In this document: positions 8,290 through 26,259 of the stretch, in pieces
Position numbering within the stretch: the stretch's first letter is position 1
Layout: every line of letters begins with the position of its first letter
Assembly (NCBI RefSeq): GCF_005047635.1
Contig: NZ_SUKC01000019.1
Span: forward strand, 1 to 64,000
Direction of reading: 5' to 3'
DNA: 64,000 nucleotides
Origin: Arthrobacter sp. CAU 1506
GTDB lineage: Bacteria; Actinomycetota; Actinomycetes; Actinomycetales; Micrococcaceae
The notes under the pieces: model-generated
What the model saw: the letters and a program-made list of their open reading frames with translations, nothing else
Told to the model about the DNA's origin: nothing
Database searches by the model: none
Program-made: the position numbers and the translations under genes

Positions 8290-9275
8290 GCAAGTAGCTG
8301 ATTACCTGCGGCGAGCCGAGCTGCTTGAGGCCCTCGACGCCAAACTCCAGGCCGTAACCGGACTGCTTGGCACCGCCAAACGGGACGCGCGGGTCGATGG
8401 CGCCGTGCTTGTTGATCCAGACCGTGCCGGCCTCGATCCGGGCCGCGACCTCGCGGGCCTTGGCCGGATCGGAGGACCAAACCGAGGCGCCCAGGCCCAC
8501 CTTCAGCGCGTTGGCCATCTGCACGGCCTCATCCACCGTGGAGTACTTGATGATCGGCAGCGCCGGACCGAACTGCTCCTCAGCCACCAGCGGATTGTCG
8601 TTATCGATGTCCGCAACCAACGTGGCCGGGTAGAAGTAGCCGGCCTGGCCCTCCTCCGGGTTGCCGCCGGTGAGCACGCGGGCCCCGGAATCCTAGGCCG
8701 CCTGCACCAGCTTGGCGACGATGTCGTACTGGGCCTTGTTCTGCAGCGGACCCAGAACGTTATTCTCGTCCAGCCCCACGCCCATCGGCATCTGCTCGGC
8801 CACCTCGGTGAGCGCGGCGCAGACGTCGTCGTAAATGTCCTCGTGCACGTAGAGGCGCTTCAGCGCTGCACAGGTCTGCCCGGTGTTGATGAACGCGCCC
8901 CAGAACAGGTCCTGGGCGGCCGCCTTGGGGTCCGTGTCCGGCAGCACGATGCCGGCGTCGTTGCCGCCCAATTCCAGGGTCAGGCGCTTCACCGTGTCCG
9001 CGGAGGAACGAATGATCGCCTTGCCGGTGGCGGTCGAGCCGGTGAACATCACCTTGTCGATGCCCTGGTGCGCGGCCAGCGCCTCGCCCACCTCGCGGCC
9101 ACCCGGGACTACGTGCAGCACGTCGGCCGGCAGCACGGTGTTGAGCACCTCGGCCAGCGCCAGCACGGACAGCGGGGTGTACTCGGAGGGCTTCATCACC
9201 ACGGTATTGCCCATCCGCAGTGCCGGCGCGAGCTGCCAGACGCTGATCATCATCGGCCAGTGCCACGCTCCGATT
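8290..9275 (-). pseudogene. Aldehyde dehydrogenase remnant, 5'-truncated with an internal stop
   Basis: Homology starts abruptly at about 9275 in the middle of the ALDH Rossmann region (MMISVWQLAPALRMGNTVVM, normally preceded by PWN), so about 150 N-terminal residues are missing. It continues through the catalytic Glu (LELGGND), the catalytic Cys (NTGQTCAALKRL) and EEQFGPALPIIKY to FGGAKQSGYG and the usual end around 8290, where no clean stop codon follows. An in-frame TAG at about 8694-8696 splits LVQAA from DSGARVLTGG. NAD(P)-dependent ALDHs of this type oxidise amino- or aromatic aldehydes. The breaks at both ends lie next to mobile-element sequence, so the gene is dead by truncation and nonsense mutation. 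Confidence 0.85.
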
Positions 9276-9447: not shown

Positions 9448-9950
9448 ATTTGAACTGGTACGCGCACGTATTCAGGGGCCGGAAGTAGACGATTTCCGTT
9501 GTTGCCCGTAAGCCCTCTTAGCAGGTTGCGCTAGTTCGGCCCGTGGCGGCACGTGGCGTGTTTCGTCCGGAGGTTCTGGCTGCTGCTACGTATTGGGCGT
9601 AGGCGGAGGCCGGGTCAGGGAGTGGCGTCCGATCGTAGCCGGGGAGTAGCCGAGCGCATCGGCAATGATGGCCACGGGTGCGAGTTTGGTGAGTTCGTGG
9701 AGAGTTCCGAGCCGTGCCGCCCGCGTGCTATATTCTGCGGAATGGCGCGGTCAGGTGACCTGGGTCGATGTGTCGCCCTGGCGAAGTTCCGCGGAATGCT
9801 CAATTGGTGCTCGGGCGTGAGGCGGCGAGATCCATCTCAATACGGTCGTTGGCAAAGGCTCATCTGACCTGTGGAAACACCGAAGTGGCCGTGGAACGGG
9901 AGTTCCTGCAGCTGCTTCAACTCTCGTACTTTGAAGGCCGATAATCTGCC
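9448..9950 (-). mobile_element. Internally deleted copy of the tyrosine-recombinase trio element
   Basis: Bases 9448-9832 align closely by eye with 22575-22973, which is the 3' end of the third recombinase gene plus the element end (for example CGATCGTAGCCGGGGAGTAG in both). Bases 9838-9950 align with 25714-25830, the opposite end of the same element (GAAACACCGAA...GCCGTGGAACGG). About 2.74 kb of recombinase genes is missing, joined near 9832-9838. No coding capacity is left. The copy has the same orientation as the full element at 22.6-25.8 kb and the two bracket the ABC/GntR catabolic operon. Exact outer ends are uncertain by some tens of bases. Confidence 0.75.
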
Positions 9951-9974
9951 TGACGTCAAGTACACTCCTTGATG

Positions 9975-22574: not shown

Positions 22575-22649
22575 TCGATTGATTCAACTGGCATGCGCGG
22601 GTATTCATGAGCCGGGAGTAGGCGATTTCCGTCGTTGCCGTAAGCCCTC

Positions 22650-24166
22650 TTAGCTGGTTGCGCTTTCGAAAGTTCGGCCTGTGGCGGCACGTGGCGTGTT
22701 TCGCCGGGAGGTTCTTGCTGCTGCGATGTATTGGGCGTAAGCGGCGGCCGAGTCAGTGGCGTGGCGCTCGATCGTAGCCGGGGAGTAGCCGAGCGCATCG
22801 GCAATGATGGCCACGGGCGCGAGTTTGGTAAGTTCGTGGAGAGTTCCGAGCCGTGCCGCCCGGGTGCTGAATATTCTGCGCAATCGCACTGTCAGGTGAC
22901 CTGGGTTGATGTGTCGTCCTGGCGATGTTCCGCGGAATACCCAGTTGGTGCTCGGGTGTGAGGCGGTGAGGTCGTGGCCGGGATTCTCGGCGAGTTCCCG
23001 CCACGGCAGGTCCAGCGGATCCGGCAATGCGATCTGGATTGTCCCGAACCGGACGGTGACCAGGTCTTCGGTGATGGTCACGTCGTGCCAGGTTAGCCGA
23101 GCGATGTTTTCAGCTTGCTGTCCGAAGACGAGGATGAGGATCGCGGCGGCCCTGTCCCGTGCGTCGAGTCCGTCCAGTTGAAGCACCTTGTTCAGCGCTT
23201 CGTCCTGTCCTGTCTTGTCTTGTCGAGTTTGGGACTGGTTCCGCGGCGGTGCGGGAGGATGGCGAGACCTGCCGGAGCGGCCTTGATTTTGATGGCCCAT
23301 TTGAGGAAGCGCTCGGCGATGCGCCGCGTCGTTGGCCCTTCTGCTTGCCAGACATCCAGGTGGGATTGTTGCAGTTCGGGCAGTTTGATGCCCTGGCCGG
23401 TGAGCCAGTTGAGCAGGTCGATGGCCACGGTGACCTCCTGTTTGGCACGCAGGAAGGTTCCGCGGCTGACTTCATCCATGTGGTTCATCCGTCGTTGGTG
23501 GTGCCAGCGGATGTAGCGGCGGATCACTTCACGGTTCTGCAGGTCACTCACGCGTTCGAGGGCTTGTGCGGCCCAACTGTCGTAGCGCATCCGGAGCTCG
23601 TCCCGTCGGGGGAGCACCCCGTGCTCGATGAGGAGTCCTCGGACGTATTCGCGGGTGCGTGACTCGGGCAGTCCGTCGAAAGTTTCGTGCGTGATCGCGG
23701 GTGCGGTCGCGAGGCTTCGAAGGAACGCTGTGACGTGCTTTTGCCGGATCCAGGTCAGGCCGCTGTTGGCCCGTTTCATCGACTTCAACGCCGCCGCCAG
23801 AGGGATCAAATCGTTGGAGACGGATCCCGTGGCCGGGTCGGTCAGCAGGTTATCCACGGCATGGCCGAGGACGCAGGTCCAGCAGCGGCCGCCGCTGTGA
23901 AGTTCGTCCTCGGCTCCGCAGGACCGGCAGTCGACGTTGAGGCGGATGCCCGAGCATCGACGGCACGCGGGTTGGGCGTCGATGAGGCCGGGCAGGACGC
24001 CTTCGTGTCCGCAGGCGCAGACGCCGCGGGTGCGTTTGGCTTGCTGGTAGCAGTAGCCGCAGACTCCGCCGTCGGGCCACCGTGCAACGGTTTGGTGGTG
24101 CTGGCCGCAACGATTACAGGGGACCGGCCAGCGGATCGGGTCCTCCGGCTTGCGGGGCCTACTCAC
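22650..24166 (-). pseudogene. Third recombinase of the trio (TnpB-like), frameshifted by a 5-bp repeat unit
   Basis: From ATG 24166 the first frame encodes 324 residues with paired Cys motifs (CNRCGQH, CGYCYQQ, CACGHEG, CRRCSG, CRSCG, CWTC), probably two or three zinc ribbons, then a helical SAM-like domain (RQKHVTAFLRSLATAP...). It stops at 23192. The homologous C-terminal catalytic-like domain (LDARDRAAAILILVFGQQAENIARLTWHDV, then ADALGYSPATIERHA) continues in the next frame to 22650. Removing one TCTTG/TCCTG unit at 23203-23222 joins them into 503 codons. The domain lacks the Arg, His-x-x-Arg and Tyr of active recombinases, so even the intact protein may be an accessory. The start overlaps the HTH gene by 8 bases. 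Confidence 0.75.
23203..23222. repeat. Four-unit 5-bp tandem repeat at the recombinase frameshift
   Basis: TCCTG-TCCTG-TCTTG-TCTTG on the plus strand, read as AAGAC/AGGAC units in the gene. Five is not a multiple of three, so gain or loss of one unit switches the downstream frame; three units would restore a 503-codon gene. Confidence 0.85.
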
Positions 24167-24512
24167 CGTCTTCGGGGGTGACGAGGCGGATGCGTTTGGC
24201 GATCGGGTTACCGGGTTGGATGCCCAGGTCTTCGCTGCGCTGCGGTGCGTCGGCTGTCGCGGCGGCGCGCAGCTCGACGAAGGGTTCGAACAGGTCGTTG
24301 GGGGTGCAGTCCAGGATGTCGCAAAGGGCCGCGAACGTCCTGGCCGGAATGCGTTCCGGCGTGGCCGTGACCAGCCGGTAAACCTGGCTCTCGGACAGGT
24401 TGATGCCGCGGGATTTCAGCAGCGGCATCAGTTCGGTGGTCTTCCAGAGGTTTCGCTTGGCCATGAGGGCACGCAAATTCCAGCGGTAGCCGATCCGGCG
24501 CTGTTCAGGCAT
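24159..24512 (-). CDS. Small XRE/HTH protein of the recombinase trio
   Basis: The product is 117 residues, beginning MPEQRRIGYRWNLRALMAKR. Residues about 12-75 form an XRE-type helix-turn-helix: NLWKTTELMPLLKSRGINLS, SQVYRLVTATPERIPARTF and ALCDILDCTPNDLFEPF are typical of Cro/C1-like repressors with the recognition helix at SESQVYRLV. The C-terminal third is polar. It overlaps the upstream recombinase by 8 bases and the third gene by 8 bases, so the three are translated together. In Tn554 the small third protein (TnpC) directs orientation of insertion; here the HTH suggests a DNA-binding accessory or autoregulator. The exact role is not known. Confidence 0.8.
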   Translation of the reverse strand: MPEQRRIGYRWNLRALMAKRNLWKTTELMPLLKSRGINLSESQVYRLVTATPERIPARTFAALCDILDCTPNDLFEPFVELRAAATADAPQRSEDLGIQPGNPIAKRIRLVTPEDGE

Positions 24513-25626
24513 CTGGGTCCTCCAAGGTGGTGATGCGGCGTGCGATCATCTGTTGCACGGTTTTCTGCTTGAAGTCCGACGATACCGACGTGTAGAGGCC
24601 GGTGGTCGAGGCGTACGAGTGGCCGACCTGCGTCTGCACGAATGCCGGGTCGTAGCCGGCTTCGATCAGGTGGGTCACGTAGGAGTGTCTGAGGCAGTGC
24701 AGCCCCAGTTCCTTGGGCAATCCAACGGCGTCGCGTGCTGCTGCGAAGGCATCGCCGAAGCTGCCAAGTGACATCCGGGCGCCCCGTTCGCTTGGCCAGA
24801 GCGCCGATGACCGGTCAGCTGTTGGGAACCGCGCCCGCATCCCGCCGGTCCAGGTACGCAGCTGATCCACGACCCAGTCGAACTCCGGCACGGTCAGAAC
24901 AGTCCGCCGCCTGGGTCCTGAACCTGCCGTGCCTTTGGCAAACCGCACCTGGACGGCACCAAAGCGGCCATAGTCAGTGACGTGGGGATTGGGGCCGAAG
25001 TCCTCCAGATCCAGCATCGTCATCTCCCGCCGGCGAAGACCATAGGCATAACAGACTTTGAACGCCACCGAATCACGGAACAGCGGCAGCCAGCGCTTAC
25101 TGCCGGCCGCGTACTCACGGTCGACGAGATCGTCGATGTGATCGAAAAGCCGTTGCAGCTCAACCTTGGTGAATGCCCGCCGCTGCGCCGGCACGGCGTC
25201 ATCGGTCGTGTGCCTGGGCGTGTTCCATTCAAAGCAGATCTGGCTCGGGATATCGCCAAAAGTGCGTTCGCAGAACTCGCCCCACCCATAGCCAGGATGC
25301 GTCAGGTAGGAGCAGAACATCGCCACGGCATTGCTGTACGAGCGCAGCGTCTTGAGGCTGATCGGCTTCTCACCGGAACGCAGTCCGGCCAGGAACTCAT
25401 CTATGTCCACCGGACGCCATTGCCACGGAAACTCACCGGTGAATTCCTGGAACCGCGCCAGCAGCTGGCAGCGCTGCTTGATGGTCTGCGTCGTGAGCCC
25501 ACGGGCCAGCATCTGCGCCCGCCAGCCATCCAGCATGGCCGTGAAAACACGCTCGTCGGCCCTGAAAAGCCCGACAGTCGGATCCACCAGCATCCGCGGG
25601 ACGAAACCCGGAACGGCACCACTCAC
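24505..25626 (-). CDS. Tyrosine recombinase/integrase, first gene of the trio
   Basis: The product is 373 residues, from GTG 25626 with AGGGG six bases upstream. A SAM-like DNA-binding N-domain covers residues about 25-125 (MLARGLTTQTIKQRCQLLAR...). The catalytic domain has the first Arg in AYGLRRREMTMLD, His-x-x-Arg in LHCLRHSYVTHL, a conserved GHSYASTT and the nucleophile Tyr in TGLYTSVS. All core residues are present, so it should be active. It is the site-specific integrase of the element, cutting and joining DNA through a phosphotyrosine intermediate. The deleted copy at 9.4-9.95 kb keeps only the element ends and could be acted on by this protein in trans. Confidence 0.92.
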   Translation of the reverse strand: MSGAVPGFVPRMLVDPTVGLFRADERVFTAMLDGWRAQMLARGLTTQTIKQRCQLLARFQEFTGEFPWQWRPVDIDEFLAGLRSGEKPISLKTLRSYSNAVAMFCSYLTHPGYGWGEFCERTFGDIPSQICFEWNTPRHTTDDAVPAQRRAFTKVELQRLFDHIDDLVDREYAAGSKRWLPLFRDSVAFKVCYAYGLRRREMTMLDLEDFGPNPHVTDYGRFGAVQVRFAKGTAGSGPRRRTVLTVPEFDWVVDQLRTWTGGMRARFPTADRSSALWPSERGARMSLGSFGDAFAAARDAVGLPKELGLHCLRHSYVTHLIEAGYDPAFVQTQVGHSYASTTGLYTSVSSDFKQKTVQQMIARRITTLEDPDA

Positions 25627-25830
25627 TGCAACCCCTAAACCATGGAATCATGCATTAGATGCAGGAAACCTACAGCGGCAAGGGATCCAGGAGCAAATTC
25701 ACACCGAGCACCCCAATGCTGTCATTGCAGTAAAGACTCGTCTGATCTGCGAAAACACCGAAATAGCCGTGGAACGGAAGTTCTCGCAGCTACTTCTACT
25801 CCCGTACTTTAACCGCCGATAACCGTGAAT

Positions 25831-26259
25831 ATGTCGACCGGGGCCGTTGCTGAGCGGAGACTGACATCGGGGGGAGCGGAGCGTTGGAGGATCCTCAAAC
25901 GGGACAGTAATGAGCCCTGATGGAACGCGAATTCCATCGCCCACTTTCACGTACTTGCATAAGATCTCGCTCATCCATGACGCGGAGTGGGACCGGTCTA
26001 TGCGACAAACTTTCGCTAAAGGCAATGCTGCAGAATCTGACCATTCCGGGCGGACGCGTCGCGGCTGCGGTATTAACCGGCGAAACGGATACCGGAAAGC
26101 ACCGGCAGCCGCTATGATCGACGGGGTTTTGGGGGAGGCATCTTTTTTGCCGGCCTGCCCAGTGTTGCCAGGTCTCAGCTGATTAGGGCAGGGCAGGATC
26201 CTATGCTGCCCGCATTCGTAGGTTGCCGCTGGACATACGGGTGCGCTTGTGTCGCCGGG
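25831..26259. other. Gene-free spacer between element and acetyl-CoA synthetase gene
   Basis: About 430 bases without a convincing gene. A weak stem GGGCAG...CTGCCC near 26189-26210 may serve as terminator for the synthetase gene, but the stem is short and lacks a T-run. Confidence 0.4.

Follow-up and report, generated by a model that had tools for sequence, protein, structure and literature searches.

The window analysed here, a stretch of 64,000 nucleotides from the genome of the soil bacterium Arthrobacter sp. CAU 1506, carries a cluster of three adjacent genes whose third member is interrupted at a run of 5-bp units, and the question raised by this locus is whether the interruption is a switch or a loss. 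The initial annotation had noted that the two frames of the third gene join when one of the four units is removed, and had left open whether this reflects phase-variable control of a mobile element or a recent inactivating event. The arithmetic of that join was confirmed, since removal of one unit turns 1517 nt into 1512 nt and gives a frame of 503 codons. On the plus strand, positions 23203-23222 read TCCTG TCCTG TCTTG TCTTG in the window letters, and these are four tandem units in a frame-breaking position, whose number sets the frame of the gene. One such tract was present in the 64-kb window and none in 30 composition-matched simulated 64-kb sequences, and a tract of this kind is not expected as a chance product of base composition; a scan of 134 kb of related loci likewise yielded no such tract, a run of N aside. 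The Tandem Repeats Finder score of the tract was 32, which is ordinary among the 18 rows returned for the window. The features of the locus are collected in Table 1, where dif stands for the chromosome dimer-resolution site.

Table 1. Features of the three-gene element and its relic in the window, in window coordinates.
Feature	Position	Strand	Description
Whole element	22586..25810 (about)	-	Bounded by AAAGTACGGGAG on the left, integrase side (~25810) and by GCATGCCAGTT on the right (22586)
Gene 1	24505..25626	-	Tyrosine recombinase/integrase, 373 aa, PF00589
Gene 2	24159..24512	-	Cro/C1-type helix-turn-helix (HTH) protein, 117 aa, PF13443
Gene 3, broken	22650..24166	-	Cysteine-rich motifs near the N-terminus, C-terminal part resembling tyrosine recombinases; the A. 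crystallopoietes product has 492 aa
Truncated gene 3 frame	23192..24166	-	324 aa; stop codon included in span
Out-of-frame gene 3 remainder	22650..23300	-	216-aa ORF; its ATG is out of frame in relatives
Four-unit tract in gene 3	23203..23222	-	Coding strand GACAA GACAA GACAG GACAG
Degenerate dif-like 28-bp site	25812..25839	-	Outside left end; GGTCGACATAT-TCACGG-TTATCGGCGGT
Relic of second copy, internally deleted	9453..9932	-	Left end joined to 3' part of gene 3 and right end
Dif-like site of relic	9934..9961	-	ACTTGACGTCA-GGCAGA-TTATCGGCCTT

Homologues of the third gene were gathered from genome contigs, whole genomes and plasmids, and were aligned and their units compared, which was one of the checks proposed with the initial annotation. 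The results showed that 25 homologues are single open frames of ~484-500 aa (one of them reaching the end of its contig), and that in every full-length homologue examined the codons of RGTSP(K/R)L are separated from those of (E/Q/K)AL by 18 bp, where the window has 23 bp. The full-length homologues all read through this point, and the join of the two frames is therefore real. The nearest relative, Arthrobacter crystallopoietes, holds three copies that are ~93-94% identical to that of the window, one on plasmid pLDW-10 and two chromosomal; at the tract their sequence is GACAAGACAGGACAGGAC, with three units in all three copies and the gene open over 492 codons, and the extra GACAA of the window is the sole difference there. 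Beyond the window species, which is represented by one genome, and A. crystallopoietes, the 18 bp do not form a four-unit run and mostly contain no repeat at all. Given that the full-length homologues all have 18 bp and that A. crystallopoietes differs by one GACAA, the comparison indicates that one GACAA unit was duplicated in tandem in the window, and that this state is derived whereas the three-unit, in-frame state is ancestral. The tract was thus correctly described at the outset, and its duplicated unit, first given only as one of four, can be specified as GACAA (TCTTG on the plus strand).

The age of the break was judged from coding constraint. Measured against A. crystallopoietes, dN/dS of gene 3 was 0.17 before the break and 0.16 after it, while genes 1 and 2 gave 0.12-0.13, and distances to five outgroup copies revealed no marked excess of amino-acid changes in the window past the break. 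Since dN/dS is similar on both sides and no marked excess was seen, most of the divergence would have arisen while gene 3 was intact, and the break would be recent. Together with the ancestral three-unit state, these data support well the second proposal of the initial annotation, a recent inactivating event, and we read the frame break as most likely a recent loss-of-function mutation.

In the explanation that we favor, the short coding stretch GACAAGACAGGACAGGAC was already repetitive, and replication slippage, the likely cause of the duplication, would have copied one 5-bp unit of the partner gene there. Translation would then end after 324 codons, and the duplication is predicted to remove the recombinase-like C-terminal part of the gene 3 protein. 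All four gin genes of the GInt islands are essential (PMC5385486), and by analogy with these the third protein would be needed for movement of the element; because of that presumed need, the window copy would be immobile unless complemented in trans. The three near-identical copies in A. crystallopoietes indicate that the intact form moved recently. In this reading the change in the window would be a recent loss in one direction, as opposed to a switch.

The opposing view, that the tract is a selected contingency site toggling the third gene and hence the mobility of the element, appears improbable to us. It would fit the presence of four consecutive 5-bp units within the coding region, the breaking of the frame by a one-unit change and the failure of base composition to predict the tract, and in their 5-bp units within a reading frame, where one unit shifts the frame, the opa-type tracts of Neisseria are alike (PMC7157529). 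Those tracts, however, mostly have at least five units and vary between isolates, whereas the four units here are imperfect (two GACAA and two GACAG) and the copies in relatives are invariant. Moreover, meningococcal opa pentanucleotide tracts of at most five units change at 0.007 per month as against 0.16 per month for those of at least nine units, i.e., ~20 times more slowly (PMC7157529), and four imperfect units lie below the fast-switching range. Among 395 family genomes the tract was confined to the window (four units) and the three copies of A. crystallopoietes (three units each), and no variant of two, four or five units was found elsewhere in these genomes; the viral contigs searched contained no tract, and the phages searched with the whole element gave no match. 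The homologues therefore do not keep a repeat of varying unit number, and the coding constraint, equal on either side of the break, likewise speaks against toggling. The suggestion of phase-variable control is thus not supported, given a repeat confined to the window and its closest relative and invariant in the latter.

It is about equally improbable that the fourth unit is an error of sequencing or assembly, the true sequence having three units and an intact gene 3. In favor of such an error, the assembly is a draft in 44 contigs, the other copies are all intact and the constraint past the break is undiminished; yet a read is far longer than the 20-bp tract, a second full copy of the element that could give rise to a chimera is absent from the genome, and an error of exactly one unit is rarer than a homopolymer error. 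Less probable still is a functional split, in which the halves of gene 3 would be made as separate proteins that still cooperate. The 3' frame does open at an ATG (23300) and still shows signs of constraint in its codons, but a ribosome-binding sequence is not evident ahead of 23300, none of the homologues examined is split at the tract, and a recent break accounts equally well for the constraint. Programmed -1 frameshifting was rejected, as an X XXY YYZ slippery heptamer is absent from the overlap of the frames. We have strong confidence in the reading of this locus as a 3.2-kb element of an integrase, an HTH protein and a partner of 492-503 aa, lying by a dif-like site, in which the partner gene was broken one-way by a slippage duplication.

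The nature of the partner required some qualification of its first description as a recombinase gene. The Phage_integrase domain PF00589 of gene 1 was detected at E 1.6e-16, which places this protein among the tyrosine recombinases. In gene 3, the homologue alignment has more than 10 invariant cysteines within the first 100 residues, and PF00589 weakly matches the C-terminal half (19 of 22 members at E <=1, best 1.8e-6). A Foldseek search with a predicted gene 3 model of moderate quality (pTM 0.34) returned tyrosine recombinases as the nearest structures, the best being the Tn1549 integrase at E 2e-4, with XerA also among them. By inspection of the alignment, the conserved C-terminal block has LHELTKLAP where LHxLRH is usual, and an HxxR motif was not seen there; a search of solved structures by sequence did not find a gene 3 homologue. 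A profile comparison of gene 3 with gene 1 by hhalign, made with shallow alignments, gave no significant homology, and the case for a recombinase-like fold therefore rests on PF00589 and Foldseek. On these weak matches, the gene 3 protein would have a tyrosine-recombinase-like fold lacking a recognizable active site, and the product is better regarded as a recombinase-like partner.

The ends of the element were defined with the help of A. crystallopoietes, whose three copies are identical over 3248 bp save 3 bp at the left boundary; AAAGTACGGGAG was accordingly taken as the left end and GCATGCCAGTT as the right end. The element thus has defined ends and occurs as near-identical copies at different places. 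The relic in the window, which has kept both ends but lost genes 1 and 2 and the greater part of gene 3, lies 16 kb from the full copy and shares its orientation, and the stretch between the two holds transporter and catabolic genes. Near this relic an aldehyde dehydrogenase-like frame (8693-9266, minus strand), apparently broken, ends at ~9266. Another relic was seen elsewhere in the window's genome (contig C24, 3551-4156), consisting of 606 bp from genes 1 and 2 that are 96% identical to the window element and have a stop codon within gene 2, and the right-end sequence GCATGCCAGTT comes next. At eight other loci, too, the right end GCATGCCAGTT is present, followed directly by an apparent left end, xAA..ACGGGAG, which suggests that copies or relics may accumulate one behind the other next to a single dif site.

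Directly outside the left end, the copies have a site of the form ACTTGACATAA-N6-TTATCGGCGTT, which agrees with CACGCCGATAATGCACATTATGTCAAGT, the actinobacterial dif site proposed for Frankia alni (PMC3025954), when the latter is reverse-complemented. In an unbiased scan reaching as far as 400 bp ahead of the integrase start, with a site defined by at most three mismatches in 18 fixed positions, a dif-like XerC/XerD site was found at the integrase end in 21 of 24 copies with full flanks (all except L008, L024 and L027), and in 20 it was 195-213 bp from the integrase start. The best sites in shuffled controls usually had five or six mismatches, with extremes of three and seven. In these copies the element thus keeps a constant position and orientation by a dif-like site. 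In 149 family genomes, nearly each had one canonical site, and some had a few variants differing in the central 6 bp; the trio or its remnant directly adjoins canonical dif in G002, G069, G054 and G015. Where trio and site were on one contig (G015, G069, G153, G179, G062 and G005), the start of the third gene was ~1.65-1.78 kb from the site, and in the last four of these a distant sister clade lies on the XerC-arm side and points away. In the window's own genome, canonical dif is located close to the beginning of contig C4. This contig shares a 123-bp overlap with the end of contig C26, and C26 has an intact sister-clade trio, with a gene 3 that is ~35% identical, on the XerC-arm side of that canonical dif. 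The window element itself, judged by the site at its left end, occupies a dif-like site that is secondary and degenerate. Additional dif-like sites whose 6-bp centers are not canonical were also observed in G001, G005, G006, G165 and others, and are reminiscent of the dif modules of Acinetobacter plasmids. By its genomic placement the trio resembles a 'dif hunter' of the tyrosine-recombinase kind, and we think it probable that the trio of integrase, HTH protein and recombinase-like protein, widespread in Actinobacteria, forms a tyrosine-recombinase transposon family that hunts dif and dif-like sites, with an XerD-side clade and a distant XerC-side sister clade, the window copy being a member that was crippled recently.

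The 5-bp event itself is an ordinary case of gene death in a mobile element, and it is a caution that a short repeat need not be a phase switch; the part worth following is the association of the element with dif. If the trio truly recognizes dif or dif-bound Xer proteins, it would constitute a second dif-targeting enzyme class alongside the IS1202-family DDE transposases, and it would help to explain how modules gather in Actinobacteria at dif and at the dif-like sites of plasmids, conjugative ones included. In the open-access papers searched, a trio with a tyrosine recombinase placed at dif sites of actinobacteria was not described, and we regard the association as provisionally new.

Several known systems share parts of this organization. 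The RIT elements (PMC3414803) are alike in having three adjacent, overlapping genes on the same strand within ~3.2-3.5 kb, tyrosine recombinases among them, and in occurring as multiple copies on plasmids and chromosomes. In RIT elements, however, all three are tyrosine recombinases, whereas here the middle gene encodes a 117-aa HTH protein and the third product has no recognizable active site; the RitA, RitB, RitC recombinase trio is thus absent, gene 2 being an HTH protein of PF13443, and the assignment was rejected. Tn554 and Tn554-like actinobacterial elements (PMC3414803) are likewise three-gene tyrosine-recombinase transposons that include one small protein and have preferred insertion sites, but they carry one abnormally long recombinase (611-828 aa) beside a normal one, and with products of 373, 117 and ~492-503 aa the present element has none of that length. 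The GInt islands (PMC5385486) and the strand-biased circularizing elements (PMC10214605) resemble it in combining tyrosine recombinases with accessory proteins in one operon and in target specificity, and GinC, which is without a catalytic arginine (PMC5385486), offers a likeness to gene 3. These systems, though, have four genes and usually cargo; between the ends of the present element there are three genes and no cargo, and a ginABCD operon was excluded. In placement the element resembles the IS1202 family of 'dif site hunters' (PMC10132070), whose members, chromosomal and plasmid-borne alike, always sit a few bp away from dif or a dif-like site and in a single orientation. Their DDE transposase and inverted repeats set them apart from the trio, in which a tyrosine recombinase is the sole enzyme domain found, and the known ones are located 5 bp from the XerC arm, whereas the present clade lies beside the XerD arm.
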